A DNA stretch of 58,828 nucleotides from Candidatus Sulfotelmatobacter kueseliae. GTDB lineage: Bacteria > Acidobacteriota > Terriglobia > Terriglobales > Acidobacteriaceae. How positions within the stretch are numbered: the stretch's first letter is position 1; the number at the start of each line of letters is the position of its first letter. The DNA lies in NCBI GenBank assembly GCA_900290255.1, contig OMOD01000129.1:1-58828 (forward strand), written 5' to 3'. This document shows positions 22,882 through 55,100 of this stretch, one piece after another. Under the pieces are notes generated by a model, which was not told where the DNA came from, did no database searches, and saw only the letters and a program-made list of their open reading frames with translations. The translations under genes were made by a program, and so were the position numbers.

Positions 22882-24342
22882 TTATACCATCAATTCGCCG
22901 GCCAAGCTGTTCGGGAAGCAGGCGGTGACGACCACCTGGGCATAAGCTCCGACGTTCGGGCCTGTGCTGGCCGAGGCGGTAAAGTTCACGATCTTGTTCT
23001 GCGACGTGCGGCCGACCCACTGGCCGCGCGGCTGGTTATAAGCTTCGACCATTACTTCAACTGGTGACCCTAATAGTCTGTTGTGCTTCGTGATCTGAAT
23101 CTCCTTCTGCCGTGTCATCAAAACTTCCAGGCGGCGCGCTTTTTCGGCATCAGGGATGGCATCTTCGAGGCGGAGAGCGGGAGTGTTCGGCCGGGGCGAA
23201 TACTTGAAGGAGAAGATAGCGTCGAAACCGACCTCATCGAGCAAGGTCAGGGTTTCCTCAAATTCCGCTTCCGTCTCGCCCGGGAAGCCGACGATGACGT
23301 CAGTGGTGATGGCGATCTCGCGGCGGGCGGATCGCATCCAGGCGATGCGCTCGAGGTATTGGTCACGGGTGTAGAGGCGCTGCATGGCGTGGAGCACGCG
23401 CGTCGAACCGCTCTGCACCGGCAGATGGACGTGATCGCAGAGAGTGGGTACGGCATCAATGGCGGCCACGATATCCCGGCCAAAATCCCGTGGGTGAGAG
23501 GTGGTGAAACGCACCCGTTTGATGCCGGGAACTTCGCCCACGGCGGCCAGCAATTCGGCGAAGCTTTTCTTGGAAGCCGGCTTCCCTGCCGGATCTTTGT
23601 ACGAATTCACGTTCTGGCCGAGCAACTGAATTTCGGTGTAGCCGAGATCGGCCATCTGGCGGGCTTCGGCGAGAACTGAGTCCGAGGTTCGGCTGCGCTC
23701 CTTGCCGCGGGTGAAGGGCACGACGCAATAGGCGCAGAACTTGTCGCAGCCCTCGATGATGGTGATATATCCGCGGTGAGGGTTGTTGCGGGCGGTGAAT
23801 TCGGTCTCGAAACACTGGTCGGTCTGGCGGTCGTCGAGGCCGGTGATGCGAATGAGTTGCGAGTCCCGAGTTCCGAGTCGCGAGCCCCGGGGAGTTGCAA
23901 TTGTGGCGTGCCCCACGTCTCCCCGGCTTTGGGAGACGTGGGTGAAGGACTGTTCTGATAACTCGGACGCCTCCAATTGCGCCAGCATCTGGGGCAGCTT
24001 GCGGTACGAGGCCGAGCCGCAGACCAGCGAAACATGCGGAGCGCGCTCAAAAATCTTTTCGCCCTCCTGCTGCGCGACGCAGCCGAGCACGCCGAAGCGC
24101 TTGCCCTCGGCCTGCAGCTTCTTGTAATCGGCGAGGCGGTGAAAGACCTTCTGCTCGGCCTTGTCGCGGATGGAGCAGGTGTTGTAGAGGATGAGGTCGG
24201 CCTGCTCGACGGTTTCCACCTGGCGGTATCCCTGCTGGAGGAGCGTGCCGACGACTTTTTCCGAGTCGTGGACGTTCATCTGGCAGCCGAATGTTTCCAG
24301 GTAGAAAGTCTTCCGCGCACCGTTTTGCGCAACCCCAGACAT
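22882..24342 (-). CDS. miaB: tRNA-2-methylthio-N6-adenosine synthase with a repeat-encoded insertion
   Basis: Radical-SAM enzyme that adds the 2-methylthio group at A37 of tRNAs. The N-terminal UPF0004 domain has Cys residues in FGCQMN, NTCSIR and LGCVAQ. The radical-SAM cluster is CDKFCAYC, and a C-terminal TRAM domain follows (SPVEVMVEAYNQ...). The length is 486 residues, more than usual, because residues about 130-165 (SFTHVSQSRGDVGHATIATP and on) are translated from a dispersed hairpin (23908-23944) and an adjacent GAGTCCCGAG-type tract. The insertion lies between the UPF0004 and SAM domains, where a loop can be tolerated. Confidence 0.93.
   Translation of the reverse strand: MSGVAQNGARKTFYLETFGCQMNVHDSEKVVGTLLQQGYRQVETVEQADLILYNTCSIRDKAEQKVFHRLADYKKLQAEGKRFGVLGCVAQQEGEKIFERAPHVSLVCGSASYRKLPQMLAQLEASELSEQSFTHVSQSRGDVGHATIATPRGSRLGTRDSQLIRITGLDDRQTDQCFETEFTARNNPHRGYITIIEGCDKFCAYCVVPFTRGKERSRTSDSVLAEARQMADLGYTEIQLLGQNVNSYKDPAGKPASKKSFAELLAAVGEVPGIKRVRFTTSHPRDFGRDIVAAIDAVPTLCDHVHLPVQSGSTRVLHAMQRLYTRDQYLERIAWMRSARREIAITTDVIVGFPGETEAEFEETLTLLDEVGFDAIFSFKYSPRPNTPALRLEDAIPDAEKARRLEVLMTRQKEIQITKHNRLLGSPVEVMVEAYNQPRGQWVGRTSQNKIVNFTASASTGPNVGAYAQVVVTACFPNSLAGELMV
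23855..23944. repeat. Hairpin element and degenerate tandem tract in frame within miaB
   Basis: 23908-23944 has stem CCCCACGTCTCCCC / GGGAGACGTGGG and, read on the minus strand, ends with GTGGGGCAC like the family at 26529, 31543, 32147 and 52632. Next to it, 23855-23890 is a tandem of GAGTCCCGAGTTCC-like units. Confidence 0.75.
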
Positions 24343-24364
24343 AGAGCAAGTATAGCGCGGAAAA

Positions 24365-24460
24365 TCCCCACCCTAGCGCCGCAAGAAACGCCACGTTAGG
24401 ACGGAGCACCCGGCTTCTCACCGATTACTGACTGGCCACTGATCACTGATCACTAGCCAC
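24365..24460. repeat. Degenerate hairpin element and short tandem tract upstream of miaB
   Basis: 24365-24411 resembles the CCCCACCCT...GGAGCACCC hairpin family but with imperfect pairing. 24419-24460 is a run of ACTGATCACT-like units. Confidence 0.5.
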
Positions 24461-24935
24461 TGCCTTTCTCGGTGAACTTCTTCAGCATGTCGAGCACTCC
24501 CACCCAGCCGCCGGTGTAGTCCTTGCGCGCGATCGGCAGCGAGGCGAGGCCGCTGTGGGTGACCTTCACGTGCGTGCCGCCGGCCTGGGGAGTGAGCTCC
24601 CAGCGGACGACGGTGCGGATCGATTTGTTGTCGTGCCAGTTTCCGAACCAGGTGTAGACGAGAAGGCGGGGAGGATCGAATTCGACGATCTCTCCGTGGC
24701 ATTCGAACTCCCTGACGTTGTTCACCACGGCCGTGCCTGCTTCCGTGTTGTAGCGGTAGCGGCCACCGAGGCGGGCATCCATTTCCCAGAGATGAATAGG
24801 GCAGGACGGGTCGGTGAACCACTGCTTGAGCTGGGCGGCGTCGGTCAGGGCCTGGAAGACGCGTGCCGGAGGCGCGGCAATGTGAATCTCGCCGACGACG
24901 GCATCCCGGTCGGGGGTGACTGCTGTGGTTGCCAT
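24453..24935 (-). CDS. SRPBCC (AHSA1-like) protein, last gene of the ArsR operon
   Basis: A 160-residue START-like protein with a ligand pocket. The typical order is visible: IHIAAPPARVFQALTDAAQLKQWF, ARLGGRYRY, EIVEFDPPRLLVYTW and a closing helix GGWVGVLDMLKKFTEK. ATG 24935 follows GGAGAGAAGCTC. It is a close paralogue of the next gene upstream and lies 14 bases after it. Function is unknown; such proteins commonly sit beside ArsR regulators. Confidence 0.85.
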   Translation of the reverse strand: MATTAVTPDRDAVVGEIHIAAPPARVFQALTDAAQLKQWFTDPSCPIHLWEMDARLGGRYRYNTEAGTAVVNNVREFECHGEIVEFDPPRLLVYTWFGNWHDNKSIRTVVRWELTPQAGGTHVKVTHSGLASLPIARKDYTGGWVGVLDMLKKFTEKGSG

Positions 24936-24949
24936 GAGCTTCTCTCCAA

Positions 24950-25408
24950 TCAGTTCTCTATATTCTTCTTAATATCGGCGAGCACACCCGGCCATCCGCC
25001 GGCGTAGTCCTTGCATGCAGCAGGCTCGCTGGCCAGGCCGCTGTGCGTAACCTTCACGTGCGTTCCGGATTTCGTGGGCGTTAATTCCCAGCGAACGATC
25101 GACCGGTGCTTGGGATTGTCGTGGAAGTTCGCAAACCAGGTATATGCGAGGAGACGGGGAGGATCGATTTCAAGAATCTCTCCGTCGTGGCGGACGACGT
25201 TGACGCCGTGGTGGGGCTTCGCCATGCGCATTTCCAAACGCCACTTGCCGCCAACGCGCAAGTCCATCTCGAAAACATCGAGATAAGGGGCGCGGCGCCG
25301 CACGGTGCCGGCGTCACAGATTCCACGGAAAACGAGGTCGGCGGGTGCAGCCATGTCGATCTCGCTGACGATTGTGTCGTTGTCGGGTGTGACGGTCAAT
25401 GTAGCCAT
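24950..25408 (-). CDS. SRPBCC (AHSA1-like) protein
   Basis: A 152-residue paralogue of the neighbouring SRPBCC protein (shared WELTP, GTHVKVTHSGLAS, KDYAGGW). ATG 25408 follows GAGGAGCATTC. The pair probably arose by tandem duplication. A dispersed repeat (25440-25492) separates it from the upstream secreted protein, so the operon may be attenuated there. Confidence 0.85.
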   Translation of the reverse strand: MATLTVTPDNDTIVSEIDMAAPADLVFRGICDAGTVRRRAPYLDVFEMDLRVGGKWRLEMRMAKPHHGVNVVRHDGEILEIDPPRLLAYTWFANFHDNPKHRSIVRWELTPTKSGTHVKVTHSGLASEPAACKDYAGGWPGVLADIKKNIEN

Positions 25409-25439
25409 GAATGCTCCTCGCTCACTACGATCCTCAGCG

Positions 25440-25492
25440 CGAAGTTCCCTCGCCCCCGCTGGTGAAGGCGCGGGGGCTTCGGGATGACGCCT
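25440..25492. repeat. Dispersed CCCTCG...CGGGATGACG element
   Basis: Very similar to 29528-29577: GTTCCCTCGCCCCCGCTGG, GTGAAGGCGCGGGGGCTTCG, GGATGACGCC. It has internal pairing CCCCCGC/GCGGGGG. Confidence 0.75.
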
Positions 25493-25510
25493 TCAGGGTC
25501 GAACAGGGCG

Positions 25511-26014
25511 TTACATTTTGCGGCGTAGATCGAAGACTTCTTTCGTCTCCTTGCCATGGTCGAGGAACGTCCACTCCTCGGTGTGGTGATTTTCGTCGAG
25601 CAAGGTCAGCACCATGCGCTGCATGTGACCGGCATCGGGCGTGGCGAGATTGGTGGCATCGATGAAATTGAAGCTGATGGTCTTGCCGTCAGGCGAAAGG
25701 CTGGCCTGCATGCGCGGCTGGTTGCCGGCGCCACAATAGTGGGTCATGAGTAGACGCTGGGGGCCGTCGAGATGGAACATGGTGATCATATCTTCGGGAC
25801 CTTGGCCGAGGATTTCGCTCATGACGGCAGACCCGCCGGCGGTAACTTTGAAGCTGACTTGCAAAACTCGGCCGTCGGGAGCCTTCGATTCCCACGTGCC
25901 GGGCATGCTCTTGATGGCGGTGAAGGCTTTCTGGGCGTCGGTCTGGGCGAAGGCCGCGGTGGCGGCCAAGGCGGCGAGAACGATCAGCGTTACGACTCGA
26001 AGCGATTTCGTCAT
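25511..26014 (-). CDS. Secreted protein of unknown function in the ArsR operon
   Basis: A 167-residue protein with a signal peptide (MTKSLRVVTLIVLAALAATA). ATG 26014 follows GAGAGGAAAATACC; ATG 26035 is possible. The body is a beta-rich, lipocalin-like sequence (MPGTWESKAPDGRVLQVSFK, GQGPEDMITMFHLDGPQRLL, HHTEEWTFLDHGKE), resembling exported DUF1579-type proteins. It lies between arsR and the SRPBCC genes in one direction. Confidence 0.7.
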   Translation of the reverse strand: MTKSLRVVTLIVLAALAATAAFAQTDAQKAFTAIKSMPGTWESKAPDGRVLQVSFKVTAGGSAVMSEILGQGPEDMITMFHLDGPQRLLMTHYCGAGNQPRMQASLSPDGKTISFNFIDATNLATPDAGHMQRMVLTLLDENHHTEEWTFLDHGKETKEVFDLRRKM

Positions 26015-26049
26015 GGTATTTTCCTCTCTCTTCATGCTGGGCATGAGTT

Positions 26050-26445
26050 TCATCTCGATTTTCGGGGAGCGGAGTGCGCTTCCCGGGCGTGCTCGGCTTC
26101 GACAAAGGCTTTCAGGTTGTTCAGGCTTGTGGCCCAGAAGCTGCGGTACTGGTCGATCCAGGAATCAACGGCGCGCAGGGGGTCGGGATTGAGCTGGTAG
26201 ACGCGGTGCCGGCCCTGGCGCTGCTCGCGGACCAGATGCGCGCGGCGCAGCAGGCGCAGGTGCTTGGAGATAGCGGGACGGGAGACCGTAAAGGCGCTGG
26301 CAATCTGCCCGGCGGGCTGGCTGCCACGGCGCAGAAGATCGAGGACGGCGCGGCGGGTGGGATCGGCGAGGGCCTGGAAAGTGGCCTCCGTGGCGCGGCC
26401 GGTTGAGATGCGCGGGGGTGAATATGTAACCGAACGGTGACGCAT
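26050..26445 (-). CDS. ArsR-family transcriptional regulator
   Basis: A 131-residue winged-helix repressor, first gene of a four-gene unit. The core is LADPTRRAVLDLLRRGSQPA, then SAFTVSRPAISKHLRLLRRA (recognition helix) and a wing REQRQGRHRVYQL. No metal-binding CxC is seen, so it is of the metal-independent, SRPBCC-linked kind. ATG 26445 lies almost at the start of transcription predicted from the promoter at 26454-26483, so the mRNA may be nearly leaderless; an ATG at 26496 would lie upstream of the -35 box. Confidence 0.88.
   Translation of the reverse strand: MRHRSVTYSPPRISTGRATEATFQALADPTRRAVLDLLRRGSQPAGQIASAFTVSRPAISKHLRLLRRAHLVREQRQGRHRVYQLNPDPLRAVDSWIDQYRSFWATSLNNLKAFVEAEHAREAHSAPRKSR
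26425..26442. promoter_or_regulatory. Second, weaker ArsR operator candidate
   Basis: TGTAAC-CGAACG-GTGACG, a degenerate version of the site at 26450-26467, 25 bases away centre to centre. It lies in the first codons of arsR. Confidence 0.55.
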
Positions 26446-26449
26446 GATG

Positions 26450-26483
26450 TGTAACCATACAGTTACATGATGGAGGATGTCAA
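26450..26483 (-). promoter_or_regulatory. ArsR promoter with overlapping operator
   Basis: On the minus strand, TTGACA (plus 26478-26483), an 18-base spacer and TATGGT (plus 26454-26459). Over the -10 lies a perfect inverted repeat TGTAAC-N6-GTTACA (26450-26467). This arrangement is what autorepression by an ArsR protein would need. Confidence 0.75.
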
Positions 26484-26528
26484 GCACTTTTTTCATGCTG
26501 GAAAAGGAAAGGTCGGCAAAGTCAAAGT

Positions 26529-26574
26529 TTCCACCCTAACCTCGCAAAGTACGCGAGGTTAGAGTGGGGTACCC
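26529..26574. repeat. Hairpin element of the CCACCCT...AGAGTGGGGTACCC family
   Basis: Stem CCACCCTAACCTCGC pairs with GCGAGGTTAGAGTGG (15 positions, one mismatch) around AAAGTAC. Relatives at 31543-31586, 32147-32186 and 52632-52673 have other stem sequences. Confidence 0.85.
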
Positions 26575-26596
26575 AGCACTTTCCTCAGCCCCTGAC

Positions 26597-26866
26597 TTAA
26601 TCGCCGAAGCGGGCGGCAGCGCGGGCTTTGGCCTTGGCGGCTTCCTCCTCGCGATTTCGTGGAGTCGCGCTGGTTTCCAGCGAGCGAAGCAAGCGGGAGG
26701 CGACGGCGGCGACTTCGTCCACGGCCGAGAGGAAGGCGGCCTCGTTGGCCTTGGAAGGTTTATTGAAGCCGCTGATCTTGCGCACGAACTGGAGCGAAGC
26801 GGCGCGAACTTCTTCGTCGGTGACCGGGGGATCGAAGTTGAAAAGAGTTTTGATGTTTCGGCACAT
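26597..26866 (-). CDS. DUF2277 family protein
   Basis: An 89-residue protein starting MCRNIKTLFNFDPPVTDEEV with LQFVRKISGFNKPS, the hallmark of DUF2277. The second residue Cys and the MCRNIK start are conserved in that family. Function is unknown; a small cytoplasmic helical protein. It appears monocistronic. Confidence 0.85.
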   Translation of the reverse strand: MCRNIKTLFNFDPPVTDEEVRAASLQFVRKISGFNKPSKANEAAFLSAVDEVAAVASRLLRSLETSATPRNREEEAAKAKARAAARFGD

Positions 26867-26991
26867 GGGGGATGACCTCAGATTGTGACGACCCTAACCC
26901 AGAATTGGCCTTGCAGGCTGCGGAAAAGGTCTTTGTGTCTGGCAGTCTGACCTCCGCGGCTAAAGCCAGCATTGAAAATAAGTCAGCTATC

Positions 26992-27009
26992 GCAGCGCTG
27001 AAGCGCTGC
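26992..27009. repeat. CTGAAG-centred palindrome
   Basis: GCAGCGCTGAAGCGCTGC, same family as 2295-2357, with a half-copy GCGGCTAAAGCC just before (26957-26968). Confidence 0.65.
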
Positions 27010-27050
27010 GCCGCACAAAATCATGCGCAAAGGCCAGTCTTACCGCAAAC

Positions 27051-27656
27051 CTAGGGTACGCCATTCCGCACAAGATCGAGAAATGCCCGGTGGACACGAA
27101 TGTCGGGGGAGAGCTCGGGGTGGAAAGTGGCGGCCATGGCTCTTCCCTGCCGAACGACGACCGGGTCGCTACCTTCGGTGGCAAGGATTTCAACGCCTTC
27201 TCCGACGTGGACGATTTTGGGGGCGCGGATGAAAACCATTTCGAGCGGAGATTCGCGGAGAGCGCCGTCATGCGGATCGCCCGACCGGTGGCACACCAGC
27301 ATCTTGCCTTCGCGGATGGAGCTGTCAATCTGGCGCCCGTAGGCGTTACGACGGACGCGGATGTTGAGGGCGCCGAGGCCAGCCTGAGAAGGGTTTTCGA
27401 CTTCGGTGGCGAGAAGAATTGCGCCGGCGCAGGTGCCGAAGGTCGGCTTCACCTTGACGAACTGCCGGAGCTTCTCGAAGCCGGCGTCGCCCAGGAGCTT
27501 GAGGAAGGTGCCGGATTCGCCTCCGGGGATGACGAGGCCTTCGATGTGGTCAAGTTGCTCGGGCTTTTTGACGAGCACAACTTCGGCGCCCAGCTCTTCA
27601 AGCCGGCGGCGGTGGGCGTCGAAGTCACCCTGCAAGGCCAGGACACCGATGGTCAT
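27051..27656 (-). CDS. pdxT: Pyridoxal 5'-phosphate synthase glutaminase subunit
   Basis: Releases ammonia from glutamine and passes it to PdxS for vitamin B6 synthesis. A 201-residue class I amidotransferase: start MTIGVLALQGDFDAH, GLVIPGGESGT, nucleophile Cys in FGTCAGAILLA, and the His-Glu pair in AATFHPELSPD. Normal length. Usually next to pdxS; here pdxS lies about 2.7 kb upstream on the same strand. Confidence 0.95.
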   Translation of the reverse strand: MTIGVLALQGDFDAHRRRLEELGAEVVLVKKPEQLDHIEGLVIPGGESGTFLKLLGDAGFEKLRQFVKVKPTFGTCAGAILLATEVENPSQAGLGALNIRVRRNAYGRQIDSSIREGKMLVCHRSGDPHDGALRESPLEMVFIRAPKIVHVGEGVEILATEGSDPVVVRQGRAMAATFHPELSPDIRVHRAFLDLVRNGVP

Positions 27657-27940
27657 AGGAATTCGGTCTTTCGTCTCTTTGCTTCGCTCCGGACAAGCTA
27701 AGAGCAGTTGCCAACCAGGACGGCGGCCTGCATTGATTTTAGCGGATATTCTGCTCTACGCAGTGTCGAAGGATGGTAAGTGAGGGTGCGGGTCGGGCTG
27801 GACCACCGCCGTCGAGGCTAGTGCATTACTTCCTCCATTACCTTCGTAAGAACCAACCCGCGTTTTGCCCAGAGACTTGGTTTGGGCTTCCCTGACAATG
27901 TAAGGAGCCGCAGGCACCGATATTCAAGGATTTGCGAGAT

Positions 27941-28882
27941 ATGAAGACGCAGCTAACAACAACCACACGGAAATATTTGGTGGAAAGGAATCTCTTTCCC
28001 GAAACGCGCTTCAGAATCCCGGCGCTTGGCTGTCTATTGGGTAGCGGGTGTTCCGCCATTTACGTCGCCAGCCATCCTGGTTCGCAGTCTGCACTCTTCG
28101 CGCACGCGCGGGATTTGGTCGTGTATCTCGGCATTGCATTTCTTATCTTTGTGCTCTTCTACCTGGAGCACTATCTGGTGCGCCGACTCACCACCTGCAA
28201 GCTCGACGATCGTTTGGCGCGTTGGCAAAGCTCGGGCAGTTCCGTGCTCATCCTGGCGGGGGTTGCGGGTACATTTTGGCCTCTGCAGATTGCAGACCTC
28301 CCCGATGACCTCTTGTTCGTCGTCGGAATAGTTGGAGAGTTCCTGTTTGTCTGGAATGTCATACAGGCTTTTGCGAGCGGCGAAATTACCGGGATCGTTT
28401 CTCCTGCGGTTCCGCGTAGTGAAGCCGCGCGCGGCGCGGACAATTTTGGCTGGCCGAAATCGCCGGTCAAGCAGTTTTCCATTGCAGCAGGAGTGCTCGC
28501 AGCAGGCGGGATTTGCTCCATCGTTCTTAATGCTCCCTCGGTTGAGATTCAGGTGCCGCTCGGAGGCGAAATGCACTTGATGCGCTTCGGATGGCTGGTG
28601 CTGGCGGCGGCAATCCCATTTGGCTTGTACTCCAGGCTCTATAAAATGTTTATCGAAACCTGGGGCATTGAATTCGACGATTCGCTGAGCCGGGTGCATT
28701 TTGTGGTGACGATCTTCGGAGTCATTCTGGCGATTTGGCAATGGGAGCAATCCGTGATGATGCGCATGACAACCCTACCTGGTCCCGAGGCTCTGAGCGC
28801 CATCGCCGGACTGAGCGTGATTGTCTTCGTGATCAATGCCCATCGCGGTTTTCGCCGCAGGCGCTCGCCACGGCGGAAGTAG
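27941..28882 (+). CDS. Polytopic membrane protein of unknown function
   Basis: A 313-residue protein with about eight hydrophobic helices (for example LVVYLGIAFLIFVLFYLEHY, SSVLILAGVAGTFW, LLFVVGIVGEFLFVWNVI). No family motif is recognised. ATG 27941 follows AAGGATTTGCGAGAT. It lies on the plus strand between pdxT and pdxS, both on minus, so it is an intruder in a normally compact pair. The C-terminus is very basic (FRRRRSPRRK), which would face the cytoplasm. Confidence 0.65.
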   Translation: MKTQLTTTTRKYLVERNLFPETRFRIPALGCLLGSGCSAIYVASHPGSQSALFAHARDLVVYLGIAFLIFVLFYLEHYLVRRLTTCKLDDRLARWQSSGSSVLILAGVAGTFWPLQIADLPDDLLFVVGIVGEFLFVWNVIQAFASGEITGIVSPAVPRSEAARGADNFGWPKSPVKQFSIAAGVLAAGGICSIVLNAPSVEIQVPLGGEMHLMRFGWLVLAAAIPFGLYSRLYKMFIETWGIEFDDSLSRVHFVVTIFGVILAIWQWEQSVMMRMTTLPGPEALSAIAGLSVIVFVINAHRGFRRRRSPRRK

Positions 28883-28934
28883 CGGGGATGGGCGACCCGT
28901 CCCCTAGAGTACCGGTTGCGGGATAGGGTCGGGA

Positions 28935-29168
28935 CTACAGAAGACGTTCCAGGTCACGCGCACCGTGGACGATTCGGAGCACAAGCACCTCTTCTCCGTC
29001 GAACCGGTGGAAAAGCAGATGCTTGGGAAATCCCGGAATCGTGGGTCGTCTTACGCCCCGGAGTTCGGGCGGCTTGAATGTGCAGGGCGCACCTGCGGCG
29101 GGATGGCTGCGCGCGACCGCAAGCAACTGCAACGCTCTAAACCGCGTTGTAAATGGAAATGGCTCCGA
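28935..29168 (-). pseudogene. Remnant of a ParE/RelE-type toxin gene
   Basis: The C-terminal half of a ParE-like toxin is clear: PELRGVRRPTIPGFPKHLLF, HRFDGEEVLVLRIVHGARDL. The frame is closed upstream by TAA 29169-29171, so about the first 30 residues of a normal toxin are missing and no ATG is available. No antitoxin gene is present. I read it as a decayed toxin-antitoxin module. Confidence 0.65.
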
Positions 29169-29182
29169 TTACCCGGAGCCAT
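29159..29182. repeat. Hairpin at the toxin remnant
   Basis: GGCTCCG-ATTACC-CGGAGCC, extendable by AT pairs at both ends. It has no T-run, so its use as a terminator is uncertain. Confidence 0.5.
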
Positions 29183-29312
29183 CAAAACACGTGGCGTTAC
29201 GGCACTCTGTCCAGGTTCAGTATTGGTCAGAGGAGGCGCGAAGTCAAGTTACTTAGGGAGATTATCTCTGCGTTTTCTCCCCGATGAAGCTTCTTCTCCA
29301 CAGACGGGAGAG

Positions 29313-29384
29313 TGGACCCGGCGGGATTCGAACCCGCATCTGCTACTTGGACAGAGTGCTGTGTTGCCGTTACACCACGGGCCC
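29313..29384 (-). tRNA. tRNA-like gene with an irregular anticodon arm
   Basis: Minus-strand cloverleaf: acceptor GGGCCCG/CGGGTCC, D-stem GTGT/ACAC with loop AACGGCA, and T arm GCGGG-TTCGAAT-CCCGC all pair. The anticodon arm GCACT-CTGTCCA-AGTAG has only three good pairs; an extra A in the 3' strand (AGT-A-GC) would restore five. The loop position reads GUC (Asp), yet the D-arm and overall body look more like tRNA-Gln. CCA is not encoded. Either a pseudo-tRNA or a sequence error. Confidence 0.55.
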
Positions 29385-29527
29385 TGAGTGGAGTTTCTGC
29401 CGTGGTTTGGGGGTTCGCAAGGACACGGGTCACAATCTTATACTGGGCGTCCCAGATCGGGACGAACTCACTGTAGGAAGGTTCACGATCCGCGCCCACG
29501 CGCGATCGGATTCGGCCACACTGCACG

Positions 29528-29577
29528 CGAGGTCCCTCGCCCCGCTGGTGAAAGCGCGGGGCTTCGGGATGACGCAC
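29528..29577. repeat. Dispersed CCCTCG...CGGGATGACG element
   Basis: Near copy of 25440-25492: GAGGTCCCTCGCCCCGCTGG, GTGAAAGCGCGGGGCTTCGG, GATGACGCAC. Confidence 0.75.
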
Positions 29578-29604
29578 ACTGAAAAGCAGGGCCGCCGGCC
29601 TAGG

Positions 29605-30381
29605 CTAGGTCTTCGAGGTTTCCTGATATGCCTGTAGGTACTGGCAGAATTTGATCCCCAGATCGGTCATTCGAGCGTCCATCAGTGGCACTTCAAGCTC
29701 GTTTGTATGAGTCCACGGAGCAATTAGGCCATACTCTACCAGTCTGCGCTCGTCTCGTTCTATTAGCGCGCTCAATTTATGTCCCAGCCTATGCGCGATC
29801 ATTTCGCGCCACTGTCTCGTGGGTACACTCCCACCTGTTCTGGGGCCGCGCAAGTAATCCAAGTATTCCTGGTATACAGACTTGAGCAGCAACAGCTGGC
29901 TGGAGTTGAGATTCTTGGCGATTTGGAAAAGCTGGTACGCCAGAATGCTTACCTGGTCACTTGCATTTACCTCATTTGCAGCGAGGAACATTGCCTTCAT
30001 TGCCTTGAGTCGCTCAGTGTCGATCGGGTTGGAATCGATTTCTCGAAGCAGATCGACCCACGTTTGATAGCCAGGGGGCCTTCCGGAGAAATCCTCTGGA
30101 ATCCTGCCGGCCTTGATCCATGCGGAAACCTCTTTCCCAAGGTCTGTTAGGGCTTCAATCGCCATGGCCGTAAACGCCACCTTAGGGCCCGACGAGACAT
30201 AACGAGGGACTCCGGACTGGAGGAGCTTGCCGACGTAGTCTGTTGCCTCAGCCCGCGTTCTTGACAGGATGCGCTCAATTACATTTGGGTTTTCGAGGTG
30301 TACGATGTCCGCGTAATCGCGATCCGACAAAACGTAGCTTCCCTCAGTCTTTCCGGCCGAATTGTCGGGCTCCTTAGCCAC
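29605..30381 (-). CDS. Helical protein of unknown function coupled to pdxS
   Basis: A 258-residue protein I do not recognise. It starts at GTG 30381, only 6 bases after the pdxS stop, so translational coupling is likely. The sequence is mostly helical, with no signal or membrane segment; the last 70 residues (REMIAHRLGHKLSALIERDE, YGLI, MTDLGIKFCQYLQ) look like a winged-helix-style end seen in some phage-related and abortive-infection-like proteins. Its codon use appears less GC-biased than its neighbours, hinting at transfer. Confidence 0.5.
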   Translation of the reverse strand: MAKEPDNSAGKTEGSYVLSDRDYADIVHLENPNVIERILSRTRAEATDYVGKLLQSGVPRYVSSGPKVAFTAMAIEALTDLGKEVSAWIKAGRIPEDFSGRPPGYQTWVDLLREIDSNPIDTERLKAMKAMFLAANEVNASDQVSILAYQLFQIAKNLNSSQLLLLKSVYQEYLDYLRGPRTGGSVPTRQWREMIAHRLGHKLSALIERDERRLVEYGLIAPWTHTNELEVPLMDARMTDLGIKFCQYLQAYQETSKT

Positions 30382-30387
30382 GGCGTT

Positions 30388-31353: not shown

Positions 31354-31382
31354 GGAAGATCTCTTTTCGCGATCGCGAAGAA

Positions 31383-31418
31383 TCAGCTGTCAGCCGTCAG
31401 CTGTCAGCTCTCAGCTAA
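31383..31418. repeat. Tandem CTGTCAG-type units just upstream of pdxS
   Basis: A run of CAGCTGTCAGCCGTCAGCTG-like units, self-complementary at AGCTGT/CAGCT. It lies about 30 bases before the pdxS ATG, like other such tracts here. Confidence 0.55.
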
Positions 31419-31542
31419 CCCTTTATTTCACGATCCGGGAGGGGTTTCGCCGCTAGTTCATTCTAACGCGGGTGCGGGGATTTGCGGAACCCCAGCTAAC
31501 CAGCGGCGGCGGGGATTCTAACGTTGTCCAGTCGAAGTCAAA

Positions 31543-31618
31543 GTCCCCATGCTAGCCGCACAGAACGCGGCCAGGATGGGGCACCCGCCACACGCGGCGG
31601 ACGAGGGCGTCCGCCGCT
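31543..31618. repeat. Hairpin elements between pdxS and the thioesterase gene
   Basis: 31543-31586: stem CCCCATGCTAGCCGC / GCGGCCAGGATGGGG (two mismatches) then GGGGCACCC, same family as 26529-26574. Directly after, GCGGCGGACGAGGGCGTCCG (about 31593-31612) forms a second hairpin, a design also at 40078-40103. Confidence 0.8.
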
Positions 31619-31625
31619 CCACGGA

Positions 31626-32090: not shown

Positions 32091-32146
32091 GGGAGGACAT
32101 TGTAACGGATGACCGGACGGCGGTTTCTGCGGGCGGAGAAAGTCGA

Positions 32147-32186
32147 CTCCCACTTCTCGCAAGACCAGCGAGAAGTGGGGCACCCC
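32147..32186. repeat. Hairpin element of the CCCAC...GTGGGGCACCC family
   Basis: CCCACTTCTCGC pairs perfectly with GCGAGAAGTGGG around AAGACCA, followed by GGCACCCC. The stem differs from other copies but pairing is kept. Confidence 0.85.
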
Positions 32187-44685: not shown

Positions 44686-44692
44686 AGTTCCC

Positions 44693-46267: not shown

Positions 46268-46280
46268 CTTTCTTCAGCTC

Positions 46281-48149: not shown

Positions 48150-48150
48150 G

Positions 48151-48266
48151 GCAAGGTTTCAGAGTTTCAAGGTTTCAAAGTAGCCGGAGCGAAGCCGCCG
48201 GGCGTACCCTCTACAGCGTTGGGGTGTTTGGAACTTTGAAACTCTGAAACCTTGAGACTTTGAAAC
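48151..48266. repeat. Inverted repeat of GTTTCA-type units between dnaX and ybaB
   Basis: Left arm 48151-48181 (GCAAGGTTTCAGAGTTTCAA...) pairs with right arm 48230-48266 (GAACTTTGAAACTCTGAAAC...). It begins just after the dnaX stop and ends 10 bases before ybaB. Same unit as 44571-44685. Confidence 0.8.
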
Positions 48267-48276
48267 GTGGAGCTCT

Positions 48277-48582
48277 ATGGGCGGATTCAACCTGCAAGAG
48301 CTGATGTCGAAAGCCAAGGCGCAGTACGACGCCCTGCAAAAGAAAATGCAGGAGACGGTGGTCGAGGCGTCGTCGGGCGGCGGCGCGGTCACGGCGAAAA
48401 TGGATGGCCGCAAACAGTTGCTCACCCTGCACATCGACCCCGAAGCGGTGAAGTCGGGCGACGTCGAAATGATCGAAGACTTGATTCTCGCCGCGGTCAA
48501 CGAAGCCGCGCGCAAGGTGGACGCGCAGATGCAGTCCACGGTGGGCGGAATGCTGGGCGGGATGGGTTTGCCGGGACTCTGA
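48277..48582 (+). CDS. ybaB: YbaB/EbfC nucleoid-associated protein
   Basis: A 101-residue DNA-binding dimer that sits between dnaX and recR in many genomes. Typical start GGFNLQELMSKAKAQYDALQ with KKMQETVVEASSGGGAV, and a Gly-rich end (GGMLGGMGLPGL). Start ATG 48277 follows a GTGGAGCTCT site right after the hairpin. Confidence 0.93.
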   Translation: MGGFNLQELMSKAKAQYDALQKKMQETVVEASSGGGAVTAKMDGRKQLLTLHIDPEAVKSGDVEMIEDLILAAVNEAARKVDAQMQSTVGGMLGGMGLPGL

Positions 48583-48585
48583 GCA

Positions 48586-48706
48586 TTGAGTAATTCTGTA
48601 ATTGAGTAATTGGGTAATTGAAAACCGTCGCAGAGCATCGTAGCCGCTGGCGGGATCGCACGACCCAAATTACTCAACCACCAAATTACAAAATTACTCA
48701 ATTTCC
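48586..48706. repeat. Inverted repeat of TAATTGAG-type units between ybaB and recR
   Basis: Left arm 48586-48625 (TGAGTAATTCTGTAATTGAG...) pairs with right arm 48666-48706 (AAATTACTCAACCACCAAAT...). It ends 3 bases before the recR ATG. Confidence 0.8.
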
Positions 48707-48709
48707 CCA

Positions 48710-49309
48710 ATGTCCCGCTTTGCCGAACCCATGTCGCGGCTGATTGACGAGCTGAAGAAGCTCCCCGGCGTCGGCGCGAAAAGCGCGCAGCGCCTGGCGT
48801 TTCACATTCTGCGCTCCAGCGACGAAGACGCCGAAGCGCTGGCGGCCGCGGTGCGCGACGTGAAGGCCAACCTGCGCCTGTGCTCGGTGTGCAACAACAT
48901 TACCGACGTCGATCCCTGCGTGTACTGCACCAGCCCCACGCGAAACCAGCGCCTGGTGTGTGTGGTCGAAGAACCCACGAACATTGCCTCGATTGAAAAA
49001 ACCAAGCACTTCAACGGCGTCTTCCACGTCCTGCACGGCGCGATCTCACCGCTCCACGGCATCGGGCCCGAGCAGTTGCGAATCGCGAACCTTATCTCGC
49101 GCGTGGTTGCGGGCAACGTGGACGAAGTCATCCTGGCGACCAACCCCACGGTCGAAGGCGAAGCGACGGCCGTCTATCTCTCGCAGCAACTGAAGCCGAC
49201 GGGGGTGAAGATCACCCGCATTGCCATGGGTATCCCGGTCGGCAGCGACATCGAATACACCGACGAAATCACCATGCTCAAAGCGATGGAAGGCCGGCGG
49301 GAGCTGTAG
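48710..49309 (+). CDS. recR: Recombination protein RecR
   Basis: Zinc-finger and Toprim protein of RecFOR-dependent gap repair, 199 residues. Helix-hairpin-helix [21 protein letters not shown]4 zinc finger [16 protein letters not shown], Toprim [20 protein letters not shown]. Start ATG 48710 has no Shine-Dalgarno beyond the adjacent repeat (CTCAATTTCCCCA), so its translation may depend on upstream ribosomes. Confidence 0.95.
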
Positions 49310-49459
49310 CGGGTCCAGAACTTGCGCGCAGTTGCGCAAGGTTTTGCCCACGGGGGATTTCGCCACCCAGGAGCCGACTGCTGGGAAGCGTTGAGCGCTG
49401 CCGGTAAGAGCTGGTTAATCAGTCAGTTAACGGCATTTGCGGAACTTTCACTTTAGGTC

Positions 49460-49616
49460 TGCTGACGGCAGTTGGCGTGCGGCCGTCTCCCTGTTTGTTT
49501 TCGCGCCGGGCTGCGATGTGAACCGCACCGAGCCCGCGAAAAAGGGCGCGTGCTGGGAATTCCGGTGCGCATCCAACTCGACGCATGAAGAAGCCGGGCC
49601 AACCAGCCCGGTTTTT
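49460..49616 (+). ncRNA. Candidate structured small RNA after recR
   Basis: Nested pairing visible by eye. Outer stem: GTTGG-C-GTGCG (49471-49481) with CGCAT-CCAAC (49568-49577). A short inner TCCC/GGGA follows (49488-49491 with 49555-49558). A central hairpin has TTTTCGC and GGGCT (49498-49512) against AGCCC and GCGAAAA (49531-49542), 12 pairs with one bulge. A terminator follows directly, and the next gene is on the other strand, so it is not a leader. The rod-like shape recalls 6S RNA, but I see no conserved sequence that proves it. It lacks the SRP RNA signature. Confidence 0.4.
49594..49616 (+). terminator. Intrinsic terminator
   Basis: CCGGGC-CAACCA-GCCCGG followed by TTTTT. The clearest rho-independent terminator in the window; it ends the dnaX-ybaB-recR direction and the candidate RNA. 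Confidence 0.85.
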
Positions 49617-49656
49617 CTATCTCTCCCTCAAGGGCGGGCCGACGAGAGGGCACAAA

Positions 49657-50208
49657 TTAACATGGCACTTCCGGCTCCAGGAAGACGTTCAGTTCTTCTT
49701 CGGTTGCGGTCAATCCCTCGGGCAATGTGCCGCGGTTGTATTCGGCCATGCGGTTCTTCCATTTGAGGAAGTCGGTGATGGTCTGGGGCTCGATGCGCAC
49801 TTCGACGCGGCGCAGACTGGCGAGCAGCAGATTCATCTCATAGCGCAATCCGATGGCGGTGCGCAGATTCTTCGCCGAGGCTTGCAGCACTTCGATCCCT
49901 CCGCGCCGGCATTCCAGCAGGCCCCAGCCTGCAGGCAATTCCTCGGTCTTGATCAGACCCGGCGGCGTCAGATAGAAGCGCTCGCTGCCGACGCCTTTTT
50001 CCGGCTTCTGGCGGAAAGGCTTGGCACGGTCGGCCAGGAAATCGGTGCGCGTGACCTTGCACTCGACCAGCACGGAATGGCAGGCGCGCTTCCAGCCGAT
50101 CGCGTCAGGCATTTCGCCGCTGACCGAGGCCTGTTCCGATAGCACGACGCCGCAGCGATAGGCCCGCAGCCAGCGCACGGCTTTTTCGACCAGTTGGGCG
50201 TGAGTCAT
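49657..50208 (-). CDS. PD-(D/E)xK nuclease-fold protein of unknown role
   Basis: A 183-residue protein. MPDAIGWKRACHSVLVECKV gives the Asp and ExK of the restriction-endonuclease-like core, with a preceding helix and RTDFLADRAKPFRQ after it. This looks like the MmcB-type or other small DNA-repair nuclease families. ATG 50208 begins MTHAQLVEKAVRWLRA; an upstream start to 50316 is possible but unlike the rest. It follows the CHAD-HD gene on the same strand by about 100 bases. Confidence 0.7.
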   Translation of the reverse strand: MTHAQLVEKAVRWLRAYRCGVVLSEQASVSGEMPDAIGWKRACHSVLVECKVTRTDFLADRAKPFRQKPEKGVGSERFYLTPPGLIKTEELPAGWGLLECRRGGIEVLQASAKNLRTAIGLRYEMNLLLASLRRVEVRIEPQTITDFLKWKNRMAEYNRGTLPEGLTATEEELNVFLEPEVPC

Positions 50209-50312
50209 GGGAGATTTCCGACTCGGTGGCCGGATCACAAGCTCACTGTCATTCTTACGCCGAGGGCGGAGTGCAAGGAAGTAACTGGCTGGTTTCGCAG
50301 CGCGAGAGAGGC

Positions 50313-51968
50313 TCACGATGCCCGGCGAACATTCATGCGCGAGCCGGAGGATGCGGCCTTCACCACCACCGGCCTCCGCAGCACGGTTTCGAGCAAATAC
50401 CTTTCAGCGGCGATGGTCTGGGCTGCTGGACTTGCTGGCGTGTACCCGTCGGCTGCGATGACCAGCGCTTCATTCCTGCCCAGAGCTGGAGGCTTGCGCA
50501 GAAAGCCGTTGGTGCGGCGCTGGCGAGCGGGTAAGCTTCCGGCCGTGTTTTCGATCCGCACGCGGCGGATGTGGCCGTCATGCCCGGCGTCGAGGGCATT
50601 GGCGAGGCGCAGGATTGCGGCCAGCCGAATGATGACTTTCTGCTCGTTGGGCAGCAGATCGCGCAGTGCCCTGTGGCTGGGGGTGGGCAGCGCTCCGCAG
50701 TGAAAGCGCGCCACCATCGCGGCCCGCTGCATGTTTTCAGCTTTCCATCCAAGCGGCGTGCCATGAGCTTGGATCAGGGCCTGCGAAGTCTTGTGGTGCC
50801 CTTTCTTCTCCTTCGACAAGCCGACGTCGTGCAGCAGCGCGGCCACGTACAGGCTGTCGCGGGCGTCTGCGGTGGTGCAGTTCGCGGTGCCGCCATTCAG
50901 AGTGCCCAGCAAGCCTGCCGCACCCAACCCGTCGTAGAGTTCGAGCGCGAGACGCGCCACGCGTTCGGAATGGGCGAAGTCAGGGTCAAGCGCCTTGGCC
51001 CACAACTTCATGCGGCGCGTGGCGATCTGCTGAATCTGCTTGCCCTGCGGCAATCCGGCGCGCCAGAGATTCCACAGCGAATCCGGTCCGACGGTCCGCT
51101 GGCGATATTCGGCGATGCGTTTGGCGCGCTCTTCCAGGGTGAGTGCATGCCAGCGCTGGCGCGATTCACCCTCTGGGAAAACGTGGCAGGAAAGCGCGGT
51201 CGCCCAGAGCACATCAAGATCGTGGACTTCGCCGAGCAAGTCCTGCATGTGTTTAAGATCGTTCGACCAGGCAGCGTGCTCGGCGGGAAGAAAATTCTCC
51301 ACGATGTAGCGAAAGCGCTTGAGGCCAATGCGCAAGGTGTGGAATGCAACCTGAGAGCGATTACGGAGGGCGCGGTGGTGCAGTTCGCGGGCGGCGGTCC
51401 AGCGCTCGAGGGCGAGATGCTTGAACACACTACTGCCGGGGCGGATGCGCGAGGCGCGCTGCGGCAGAGTTCTCGTCCATTGGCGCCATTGTTTGCGATC
51501 GAATGCGTCGAGCGCGGCGCGGGCGACATGTTTCTGTTCGGTTTCGCGCAGGCGAAGAATCTGGAGCAGGGATCGGGCCGGATCGGGCACCGGCGGATTT
51601 GCTATGGGTTCCGGTGAGGCTCCATCGTTTCCCATATCGCTCTCCGCCGCCGGCGGCAGCCCGGCCGAGTCGGCCGCGCCCACACGAACCGGACGAGGCT
51701 GAAGCTTTTCCAGCCACTCCATCATGATCTGCACGTCGCGCAGCTCGCCCAGGCTCTGGAACAGGCGCTTGCCGGCCTTTTTCATCGCCTTCCAGGCGGG
51801 ATCGGGGTCCATGGCCATCATGCCGTCGGCCATGGAGCGGCAGCGGCGCAAGGCAACCCGCAGATCGTGTACCGGGTCGGCGCCGAAATCGGTGGAGACG
51901 TGCTCGCACTCGTGGAGCACGCGCAGCATCCAATAGCGGAGGCCAGTCGTTTTGGCGGGGACGGTCAC
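50313..51968 (-). CDS. CHAD domain fused to an HD phosphohydrolase-like domain
   Basis: A 551-residue fusion. Residues 1-300 are a CHAD domain, a helical polyphosphate-binding unit, with VHDLRVALRRCRSMADGM and VAFHTLRIGLKRFRYIVENF supplying the basic surface. Residues about 330-520 are an HD domain with ALLHDVGLSKEKKGHHKTSQ and RLAAILRLANALD, like the C-terminal part of exopolyphosphatase/guanosine-pentaphosphatase proteins. Together they suggest a polyphosphate-linked hydrolase. Starts at GTG 51968; diverges from uvrA. Confidence 0.85.
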   Translation of the reverse strand: MTVPAKTTGLRYWMLRVLHECEHVSTDFGADPVHDLRVALRRCRSMADGMMAMDPDPAWKAMKKAGKRLFQSLGELRDVQIMMEWLEKLQPRPVRVGAADSAGLPPAAESDMGNDGASPEPIANPPVPDPARSLLQILRLRETEQKHVARAALDAFDRKQWRQWTRTLPQRASRIRPGSSVFKHLALERWTAARELHHRALRNRSQVAFHTLRIGLKRFRYIVENFLPAEHAAWSNDLKHMQDLLGEVHDLDVLWATALSCHVFPEGESRQRWHALTLEERAKRIAEYRQRTVGPDSLWNLWRAGLPQGKQIQQIATRRMKLWAKALDPDFAHSERVARLALELYDGLGAAGLLGTLNGGTANCTTADARDSLYVAALLHDVGLSKEKKGHHKTSQALIQAHGTPLGWKAENMQRAAMVARFHCGALPTPSHRALRDLLPNEQKVIIRLAAILRLANALDAGHDGHIRRVRIENTAGSLPARQRRTNGFLRKPPALGRNEALVIAADGYTPASPAAQTIAAERYLLETVLRRPVVVKAASSGSRMNVRRAS

Positions 51969-52004
51969 GGTCCACCTGTATCTTAGTGGAAGAGGGGCCG
52001 GAGT

Positions 52005-52010
52005 TATAAT
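52005..52010 (+). promoter_or_regulatory. -10 box upstream of uvrA
   Basis: Perfect TATAAT, about 80-95 bases before the possible starts. No good -35, and I see no SOS box that I can name for this group. Confidence 0.45.
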
Positions 52011-52103
52011 CGAAAGATTCGGCCACCTCTGGGCCTCCGACTAGCACGCGGGCTCGGGGCGAACCCGGTGGTTCCGGCCGCAGACCCGATGTCTTCTGGA
52101 TCG

Positions 52104-55100
52104 ATGCACACGGAAAGCATTGTTGTACGCGGAGCCCGCGTTCACAACCTCAAGAACATAGATTTTGAGGTCCCGCACAATCAGTTGACGGTGGTGACGG
52201 GAGTCTCCGGCTCGGGCAAGTCTTCGCTGGCCTTCGACACGATCTACGCTGAGGGTCAGCGCCGGTACGTGGAATCACTGTCGGCGTATGCGCGGCAATT
52301 TCTGGAGCGGATTGAGAAGCCGGACGCCGATTCGATTGACGGGATTGCCCCGGCGGTCGCCATCCGGCAAAAGAACACGACGCGGAACCCGCGCTCGACC
52401 GTGGCGACAGCCACCGAAATCTACGACTATCTGCGATTGCTGTTTGCCCGTGTGGGGCGGACCTACTGCGCCAAGTGTGGGCGCGAAGTGAAGAAAGACA
52501 CGGTCGACGAAGTTGCCGACACGATTCTGGCGCTCGATCCGGAGACGCGGCTGCAGGTGCTGTTTCCCGTGCAGCGGGCGGGAATGCCGCAAATAACCGA
52601 CCGCGACGAGCGGTCGATGAAGTCGAAAAAATCCCCACCCTCTCGCAAAGAACGCGAGAAGGGTGGGGCACCCGCGACTACCCTTTCTGATGCTCTGAAG
52701 ACCCGTTTGTTCGATCTGCGCAAGGCGGGGTTCAACCGGCTTTGCCAGGCAGGACAGGTCTTCGAATTCTCCACGCCGGAGTCGCTGCTCGACATTCATT
52801 TCGATCAGCCGGTCTTTGTTCTCGTGGATCGGCTGAGCGTTTCCGCCGCAGCGCGTTCCCGCATTGTGGATGCGATTGAAACGGCATATCGGGAAGCGGG
52901 AGAAGTGATTTTCGAAATTGCGCCCCGTGACGGCGATGCAGAGGCCGCGAGCGAGGGCCGCTCCGACTCGCGCTCAGGGAGCGCCCGCCCCCCACTGCGG
53001 TTTGCCCAGCGCTTTGAATGCAAACACTGCAACCTGCGCTATGAGGAGCCGGAGCCGAGACTTTTTTCGTTTAACAATCCTTATGGCGCGTGCCCGCGGT
53101 GCCAGGGGTTCGGCAACACGATTGACTTCGATCTCGACCTGGTCATTCCCGACAAGATGAAAACGCTGGCCGGGGGCGCGATCGAGCCGTGGACCAAGCC
53201 CAAGTATCGGACGCTGTTCACCGATTTGAAACGCTTTGCCAAGCAGGCCGGCATTCCGCTGGATGTGCCGTGGGCGGAACTCGAAAAGGGGCACAGGAAT
53301 CTGGTGCTCAACGGCGAAGGGCGGTTCTTCGGAGTGCGGGGTTTTTTCCATCACCTCGAGCGCAAGAAATACAAACTGCATGTGCGCGTGTTTCTGAGCC
53401 GCTACCGCGGATATTCGTTGTGCTCGGAATGCAACGGAGCCCGGCTGCGGATGGAAGCGCGGCAGGTCAAGATCAACGGGCGCAACCTCTGCGAAATCTG
53501 CGCCCTCACGGTCGAAGACGCGTTCCGGTTCTTCTCGGAATTCGAGTTAACGGCGCAGGAGAAGGACATTGCGGAAAGGCTGCTGGAAGAGATTCGCGAG
53601 CGGCTGCGGTTTTTAAATGAGGTTGGACTGGAGTACCTGACGCTCGACCGGCTTTCCTCCACGCTCTCGGGCGGCGAAGCGCAACGGATTCAGCTCGCGA
53701 CTTCGCTCGGATCGCGGCTGGTCGGCACGCTGTATGTGCTCGATGAACCTTCGATTGGCCTGCACCCGCGCGACACGCACCGGCTGATCAAGATCCTTCA
53801 CGACCTGCGCAATCTGGGAAACACGATCCTGGTAGTCGAGCATGACCCTGACATCATGCAGGCGGCCGACCGCATTCTCGACCTGGGTCCGGGCGCGGGC
53901 GAGAATGGCGGCAAGCTGGTGGCGGCGGGAACGTACGACGAGATCGCGCGGGATCCCGCCTCTTTGACGGGACGGTACCTGGCGCACGACCTGCGCATTC
54001 CAGTGCCGACGACGCGGCGCAAGCCGGGAGCCCGGCAGATTATGCTCCGCGGAGTGCGGGCCAACAATCTCAAGGGCGTGGACATCTCCATTCCGCTGGG
54101 GGTGATCGTCGCCATCACGGGCGTTTCCGGGTCGGGCAAGTCCACGCTGCTTCATCAAGTGCTCTACCGGGCTCTGGCGCAAGCCAAGCAGCAGTCGAGC
54201 AGCGGTGCGGGCGGGCCCGCGGCGTCGTGGGAAAGCCTAAGCGGCGATCAGTTTATTGACGAGGTCGTCCTGGTGGATCAGTCGCCCATCGGGCGCACCC
54301 CGCGCTCGAATCCGGTCACGTACATCAAGGCATTCGACGCCATCCGCGAACTGTTCTCTTCCCTGCCGGAGTCGAAGAAACGCGGATTTACCGCAGGACA
54401 TTTTTCCTTCAATATTCCCGGGGGGCGGTGCGAAATGTGCCAGGGCGACGGCACCGTTACAGTAGAAATGCAATTCCTGGCGGATGTCGAACTGATTTGC
54501 GAAGAGTGCAAAGGCACGCGCTACAAACCGCAAGTACTGGAGGTGCGGTACCGGGGAAAAAACATTCACGAAGTGCTGAACCTCACGGTGAAGGAGGCGC
54601 TCAAGTTCTTCGCCGAGGTGCACAAAGTCACGGAAAAACTGCGGCCTCTCGAAGAGGTTGGATTGGGCTATTTGCGGCTGGGACAGTCGGCCACGACGCT
54701 TTCTGGCGGCGAGGCGCAGCGCATGAAACTCGCTGCACACCTGCAACCGGCTGCGCGGGAGACCGGCCGGTCCAACCGCAGCGGCGATGCATCACCGCGG
54801 CAGCGGGTGCTGTACATCTTCGACGAGCCTACGACCGGGCTGCATTTTGACGACGTCAGCAAGCTGCTGGCGGCGTTTCGACGCCTGATAGAAGCGGGAG
54901 GTTCGATTCTTGTCATCGAACACAACTTGGAAGTCATCAAGACGGCCGACTGGGTGATTGATCTTGGCCCGGAGGGCGGGAATCGCGGCGGTCGAGTGGT
55001 TGGCGTCGGCCCGCCGGAGGCCATCGCCAAACAACCTGGGTCTTACACGGGCAAGTATCTGGCGCGTATCCTGAATGGGAATGGCAACGCGCGTTCGAAT

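Follow-up and report, generated by a model that had tools for sequence, protein, structure and literature searches.

A GGGTG-foot family of REP-type hairpins between and within genes of Terriglobia (Acidobacteriota), probably mobilised by RAYT transposases

The window analysed here is a whole stretch of 58,828 nucleotides (contig OMOD01000129.1) from Candidatus Sulfotelmatobacter kueseliae, in which short hairpins, described below as repetitive extragenic palindromic (REP) elements, lie between genes and inside miaB and uvrA. Six such hairpins had been claimed in an original prediction made from the sequence alone. We built a covariance model, R1, from 35 copies (alignment A1) and searched the window with filters off, and all six are present, with E-values of at most 1.8e-6 for five of them and 0.011 for the miaB copy. 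The window copies 31533, 32137 and 52621 were among the 35 model-building copies, and therefore their E-values are partly by construction. The hairpins and their host genes are as follows.

22882..24342, minus strand: miaB, host gene; closest solved chain 7mjv, a tRNA methylthiotransferase (E 1.7e-97)
23905..23956, minus strand: REP hairpin inside miaB, in frame and sense to the gene, peptide HVSQSRGDVGHA (R1 15.6 bits, E = 0.011)
24354..24412, plus strand: REP hairpin a short way upstream of miaB (start at 24342), stem degenerate, tail GGAGCACCC (R1 28.1 bits, E = 1.8e-6)
26517..26575, plus strand: intergenic REP hairpin, leader AAAGTCAAAGT, tail GGGGTACCC (R1 40.7 bits, E = 2.6e-10)
31533..31587, plus strand: intergenic REP hairpin, full leader GAAGTCAAAGT, tail GGGGCACCC (R1 61.6 bits, E = 1.2e-16)
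32136..32186, plus strand: intergenic REP hairpin of the short perfect-stem type, CCCACTTCTCGC...GCGAGAAGTGGG (R1 38.7 bits, E = 1.1e-9)
52068..55112, plus strand: uvrA, host gene; closest solved chain 2r6f, UvrA (E 9.7e-285)
52621..52674, plus strand: REP hairpin inside uvrA, in frame and sense to the gene, KSPPSRKEREKGGAP (R1 70.6 bits, E = 2.2e-19)
19732..19785, minus strand: weak seventh copy, probably decayed (R1 17.9 bits, E = 0.0022)

Read on the minus strand, the miaB copy ends with GGGGCACGCC. A loose hairpin-plus-tail detector found 6 matches in the window, against an average of 3.45 across 20 windows shuffled by blocks, a poor separation that makes this detector unspecific alone; its match at 9354 is outside the REP family, and the degenerate copy at 24354 was missed. 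The pattern search of the whole genome and the enrichment of hairpins near transposase genes, both given below, are stronger controls. With Rfam at gathering thresholds, the whole window yielded two tRNAs and nothing else, so the hairpins match no RNA family there. A third palindromic repeat, GGCGGACGAGGGCGTCCGCCGCTCC, lies directly after the copy at 31533-31587 (window 31596-31620), and a similar repeat stands beside one Y1 transposase locus (L039).

In our judgement, the six hairpins are very probably members of a mobile but non-autonomous palindrome family of REP type in Terriglobia (Acidobacteriota), most likely mobilised by REP-associated tyrosine transposases (RAYTs). This reading, in which mobility is deduced by comparing sequences, draws on the copies that were observed, their association with RAYT genes, the matching of stems, the in-frame positions, and the empty and differently filled sites in relatives.

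A full-form copy reads approximately AAAGTCAAARTCCCCACCCT - variable stem - CGCAAAGAACGCG - variable stem - AGGRTGGGGCACCC in alignment A1. Seen from the other strand, the unit begins with the foot, 5'-GGGTG, and continues into a hairpin whose lower stem starts with CCCC. The lower stem (CCCC...GGGG), the small loop and the CACCC tail are conserved, while the upper stem varies in sequence and length, and the stem often has one mismatch or bulge. That stems differ between copies while pairing is kept had been predicted and is borne out by duplex energies. For 67 hairpins flanking RAYT genes (67 of 105 nearest hairpins passed a length filter and 38 were dropped), the energy between a hairpin's own arms is -11.9 kcal/mol, compared with -5.8 kcal/mol for swapped arms and -7.5 kcal/mol for the best of 10,000 permutations. 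A cruder position-by-position pairing measure gave no difference (own 0.404 vs swapped 0.429, n 89); it was set aside in favour of the energies as the arms were judged to be mis-registered. These 67 hairpins have 35 distinct right-arm ends.

In the source genome (5.39 Mb, 198 contigs), the strict pattern has 33 matches and the reversed pattern has 0. R1 finds at least 153 matches at E up to 0.1, a lower bound with 150 of 2868 first-look candidates scored. Among 150 listed copies, 67 are singletons and the rest are clustered, and neighbours within 300 nt are on the same strand in 47 cases and on opposite strands in 10. A REPIN is a mobile unit of two REPs in inverted orientation, and the numbers of singletons and same-strand neighbours do not fit such a unit. 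Direct tandem arrays of four to eight copies with a spacing of about 60 to 120 nt were seen at C4:4815-5487, C29:7459-7924 and C57:4546-4963. A covariance search of related genomes had been proposed as a check on the prediction, and the family recurs there as well: with up to 139 candidates scored per genome and E up to 1e-4, copies were found in all 25 genomes of the genus (8 to at least 143 each) and in 1 of 16 genomes outside it. Of the 25 genus genomes, 20 have a RAYT of at least 100 bits, as do 2 of the 16 others.

Searching the source genome with PF01797 (Y1_Tnp), we detected 11 genes. In an NCBIfam scan of 10 of them, eight pass the model for REP-associated tyrosine transposases, NF047646 (REP_Tyr_transpos), one (L035) scores 79.7 bits, just under the cut-off of 80, and one (L029) is of IS200 type. 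REP hairpins lie around or inside three of the 11, namely L030 (contig C143), L033 (C20) and L034 (C117), all of which are above the NF047646 cut-off and have in common the start MPWGLKR, the HuH motif EHVH and the Y motif Y[IM]H[RL]NP. The best solved relative of a profile of these three proteins is TnpA-REP (4er8, E 8.9e-15). L030 and L034 each have one stem type on all sides, and L033 has mainly CCTTCGC with others beside it. In L030 and L034, a REP is also inserted in frame between the HuH and Y motifs.

This association was examined in a scan of a genome collection, where 322 relatives of the MPWGLKR RAYT were found and the best 80 of the 322, all titled Acidobacteriota, were analysed. 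The main count took hairpins with a tail starting CA that touch the gene edge or lie no more than 250 nt away. By this count, 111 of 123 hairpins point outward, an outward copy is present at 64 of the 80 loci, and 41 loci have copies on both sides. Of the 105 outward hairpins nearest to a gene in this CA-selected set, 101 have the tail CACCC (foot 5'-GGGTG); a count made regardless of how the tail starts, and taking hairpins inside the gene or up to 250 nt from it, gives 125 of 141. Using one detector on the same loci, hairpins number 1.79 per kb at up to 400 nt from the RAYT and 0.12 per kb beyond 1 kb, and 67 of the 80 loci have a hairpin inside or within 400 nt. At the 41 two-sided loci, identity between upstream and downstream right arms is 0.80 over 12 positions, compared with 0.41 when permuted (maximum 0.53 in 10,000), though the two stems are clearly unlike in about a quarter of these loci. 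Stems that are unlike between RAYTs and mostly common within one locus are as expected if transposase and palindrome diversify together, and the stem differences between copies largely reflect sub-families matched to different RAYTs.

Within miaB and uvrA, the hairpin had been predicted to be translated with the frame left open, and indeed both open reading frames (ORFs) read through it and carry extra residues compared with solved MiaB and UvrA. In order to place further copies, 65 listed, non-randomly chosen matches in the source genome were examined for ORFs, with a 66th, at C46:11503, left out of the counts because it lay just outside the stretch taken for it; 20 of the 65 have no spanning ORF of at least 120 aa. 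Thirty spanning ORFs were run against Pfam, with family matches for 14. Eight of these proteins have the copy within a domain or between two domains (glycosyltransferase 2, TilS, MurC, RarA, PF00144 serine hydrolase, amine oxidase, AlaRS and MeaB), and RarA contains two copies; together with uvrA and miaB, at least ten proteins of the source genome are in-frame hosts. In the other six (aminotransferase IV, XseA, RlpA, PALP enzyme, RNB nuclease and pseudouridine synthase) the copy is outside the matched domains and the coding ends are unsure. Residues are likewise added at the copy site relative to solved structures in TilS, MurC, RarA and MeaB; the AlaRS alignment is too weak at that site. Across genes, coding copies occupy all three sense frames and the antisense orientation, which excludes one preferred peptide. 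Because several frames and orientations are used, and because 182 of 210 frames across the 35 copies of A1 are free of stops, it is the DNA unit and not a peptide that would spread. As a raw count, nucleic-acid genes make up 8 of 16 hosts (uvrA, miaB, xseA, tilS, rarA, alaS, RNB nuclease and pseudouridine synthase).

The prediction had likened the hairpins to Rickettsia palindromic elements, which are also palindromes translated in frame in housekeeping proteins; they occur in another phylum and are set apart here by description. A selfish insert of that kind, specialised for coding sequence and spreading without a RAYT, would account for the number of in-frame hosts and of stop-free frames. 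However, the copies without a spanning ORF, the intergenic position of four of the six window copies, the RAYT genes flanked by matching hairpins, and the several frames and both orientations of coding copies, which do not amount to one selected peptide, make this explanation very unlikely. REP/RAYT systems are the nearer kind because the genome has cognate Y1 transposase genes with these hairpins on their flanks. According to PMC3733652, RPE-4 and RPE-6 are equated with CGTC-type repeats, which have no associated transposase genes.

Orthologous sites in relatives may be empty, filled or differently filled, and a comparison of this kind for miaB and uvrA, also proposed with the prediction, found some of them empty. 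For uvrA, inspection by eye of 19 readable linkers of the genus gave six with a family hairpin, one with a decayed hairpin, four with apparent other palindromic repeats and eight with neither. The six hairpins are of five stem types, one being common to L150 and L152, and the hairpin-bearing genes do not form one clade, by which a single insertion inherited by all is rejected. For miaB, the linker is 42 aa in the source genome and 5-6 aa in five genus-mates and seven outgroups, and a hairpin is present in 3 of 22 readable genus linkers (L180, L181 and L198), with the L181 copy in the opposite orientation.

The same pattern is found in MeaB and RarA. Among 31 readable MeaB linkers of the genus (33 loci given), 21 are short (18 of them exactly 5 aa) and 10 contain an insert, all at a common place and orientation with the tail in one frame; by eye seven inserts are clear and three decayed, and one gene (genome G004) has two hairpins in tandem. 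RarA linkers are filled in 9 of 20 readable cases (31 loci given) and in two more of a separate set, in one orientation and frame, and 2 of these 11 are decayed. By parsimony on one midpoint-rooted tree of 23 genomes, presence changes 3 times for MeaB, 3 times for RarA and 5 times for uvrA, and filled MeaB and RarA sites occur in distant clades. The sisters G058 and G006 on this tree have MeaB cores that are 92% identical, while their hairpins agree at only 0.44 in MeaB and 0.48 in RarA; by contrast, the MeaB hairpins of G022 and G059 agree at 0.83. Generally, hairpin likeness is 0.54 within an orthologous site and 0.50 between different genes (27 of 2000 permutations as high), values that are lowered by a few hairpins cut with extra or missing 5' letters. 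Overall, these comparisons point to fixed sites at which hairpins are inserted anew or exchanged, and to some that are inherited.

Another explanation for these sites involves quasi-palindrome correction, in which template switching at palindromes keeps the two arms complementary. In this case, a few old insertions would have persisted with drifting but still complementary stems. Orthologous MeaB and RarA copies do keep site, orientation and frame though their stems differ, and two stems from one gene resemble each other a little more than stems from different genes do. Nevertheless, discrete stem types, by eye, are common to unrelated genes and RAYT flanks, and presence at MeaB and RarA takes three changes each on the 23-genome tree and is seen in distant clades, so that we hold persistence of old insertions to be highly improbable. 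Under re-insertion or exchange, repeated filling of the same codon may reflect a target preference, an old copy serving as landing pad, or precise loss and regain. We offer tentatively, as a possible but rather doubtful extension, that the genus linkers are shared landing pads, with gains at the same codon, orientation and frame in separate lineages and in-place exchange of one REP for another; if so, RAYTs would steadily rewrite loops of MeaB, RarA and UvrA.

Other repeats were also noticed. A second palindromic family, CCCTCGCCCC[C]GCTGGTGAA.GCGCGGGG...CTTCGGGATGACGC, is found at window 25441-25492 and 29529-29575 (plus strand), and apparent members of it lie in frame in the miaB linkers of L185, L188 and L198 and, more loosely, L182. 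In the miaB linker of the window, an in-frame micro-repeat of GGGACTCGGRACTC type adjoins the REP copy (23853-23890), and GAAGCCGGAAGCC-type repeats occupy the miaB linker in some relatives. A further common repeat, with the sequence CTTCGAC..GCTCAGGGC and the peptide PFDSAQG or PFDKLRAG, occurs within REP stems as a nested insert or elsewhere in REP-bearing linkers, as in L306 and L307 (RarA), L159 (uvrA) and L188 (miaB).

To account for the family as a whole, we propose that the units would be mobilised as folded single strands by the Y1/HUH RAYT clade starting with MPWGLKR. TnpA-REP of E. coli is described as needing both the foot and an unpaired bulge, with the loop serving structure only; stem lengths and loops vary. 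By analogy, the RAYT would read the foot and the lower stem, bind the folded strand, cut beside it and paste it elsewhere, and the upper stem would mainly need to be a helix, free to change as long as it pairs. Copies would land between genes and in coding DNA, where those that are in frame and free of stops would survive in tolerant loops. An occupied loop seems to be revisited: other stem types are found in the orthologous linkers of other species.

Several points weigh against this proposal. No transposition has been observed and no insertion has been mapped to the base. In the source genome, the other eight of the 11 Y1 genes have no family copy in flanks of about 1.5 kb on each side, and by eye its most abundant stems differ from the stems at its three hairpin-flanked RAYTs. 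Among the 80 RAYT loci, 13 have no hairpin inside or within 400 nt. In the genus, 5 of the 25 copy-bearing genomes have no RAYT of at least 100 bits; these contain 24 to at least 135 copies each (at least 135 in G003), compared with 8 to at least 143 in the 20 genomes with such a RAYT. The genomes are drafts, and this may explain the missing genes. The source assembly has an estimated contamination of 8.5%, which could have added a few foreign copies; relatives nevertheless agree. If the hairpins were instead immobile structures selected for their role in RNA, as terminators, mRNA stabilisers or regulators, it would fit that they are stable and often intergenic, and REPs are considered to act in part at the RNA level (PMC3733652); but the conserved foot, RAYT-matched stems, presence and absence at coding sites, lack of an Rfam family at gathering thresholds and occurrence of the same element within proteins in either orientation make this explanation very unlikely. 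The predicted element, translated in frame and apparently expanding, stands; it is present genome-wide and missing from some uvrA and miaB sites in relatives, and its likening to the Rickettsia palindromic elements gives way to a REP/RAYT system.

The known systems compared here are characterised from the accessible parts of the cited papers. REP/RAYT systems (REPtrons; PMC3733652, PMC6006769, PMC8266576) similarly have short imperfect palindromes in many copies, each with a conserved foot at its 5' end, a Y1/HUH gene flanked by copies, stem types matched to the transposase, and some copies in genes, including REPs in frame inside transposase genes. In the broad sense the present family fits this type, being a many-copy short imperfect palindrome that flanks a Y1/HUH RAYT gene. 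It differs in that neighbouring copies are mostly direct repeats. The GTAG superfamily has the tetranucleotide GT[AG]G within 0-2 nt of the hairpin, whereas the foot here is GGGTG and the host group is Terriglobia. Feet of GT[AG]G type and REP insertions within transposase genes of subclass 2.4 are described in PMC6006769, and L030 and L034 carry a REP in that position between HuH and Y; nevertheless, the HuH motif of TnpA-Y1 subclass 2.4 is NH[IFV]H and that of our RAYTs is EHVH. CGTC repeats, with a CGTC tag and no associated transposase, are distinct from elements that have a GGGTG foot and flank RAYT genes.

Two acidobacterial systems come close. In PMC3733652, acidobacterial Y1 genes (Koribacter and others) are flanked by inverted repeats with the class motif GGGGWSAS (TIRYT/TIRtron), including one repeated family in Koribacter. 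These are alike as Y1 transposases flanked by inverted repeats; GGGGWSAS does not fit the motif found here, GGGGCACC (W vs C), a separation drawn by the published motif, and this inverted-repeat family of 2013 may well overlap the GGGTG family. The class 3 TnpA-Y1 of Acidobacteria and Planctomycetes (PMC6006769) also includes Y1 proteins of Acidobacteria whose hairpins are atypical and present in many copies (Solibacter has about 600). However, class 3 combines a CnGA foot with a Y motif that has Q at its end, while the family here combines a GGGTG foot with a Y motif of class 2 type, either YIHRNP or YMHLNP.

Whether the elements had been described before was left open in the prediction. REP/RAYT systems and intragenic REPs are already known (PMC3733652, PMC6006769): REPs inside genes of other bacteria, many of them for DNA repair, include those in uvrA of Opitutus terrae and Thioalkalivibrio, among others (PMC3733652). 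They keep the frame in uvrA and other repair or tRNA-related genes, as the GGGTG family does in uvrA, rarA, tilS, alaS and miaB, but they are GTAG or CGTC elements. The same paper reports recB REPs of two Xanthomonas at about the same site, and its accessible part describes no single codon position filled by hairpins with different stems across species. A GGGTG foot is described in the accessible parts of neither PMC3733652 nor PMC6006769. Among the matches listed in a literature search, with most subscription papers and all preprints outside its scope, no other paper on these elements in Acidobacteria was found. The GGGTG-foot lineage and the recurrent same-site coding occupancy with stem turnover are apparently new.

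The family offers a second, independent setting (Acidobacteriota, GGGTG foot) for RAYT recognition and palindrome spread, with many natural RAYT-stem pairs. It also provides many cases of presence and absence in housekeeping proteins, with sites that are empty, filled, doubled, nested or decayed available for comparison among species of one genus. Such sites make it possible to test whether coding REPs pass down by inheritance, are inserted anew or are exchanged in place.

In addition, Rfam reports a tRNA gene (61 bits) at window 9561-9660 (plus strand) that contains a perfect 26-bp tandem duplication (9575-9626); ARAGORN makes no call there, and the gene may be a damaged tRNA or the product of an assembly error. 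Four short 7-base tandem arrays lie at window 11672-11710, 16900-16928, 31383-31416 and 57634-57676 (TCAGCTG, GAGGTCC, TCAACAA and CTGAGGT).

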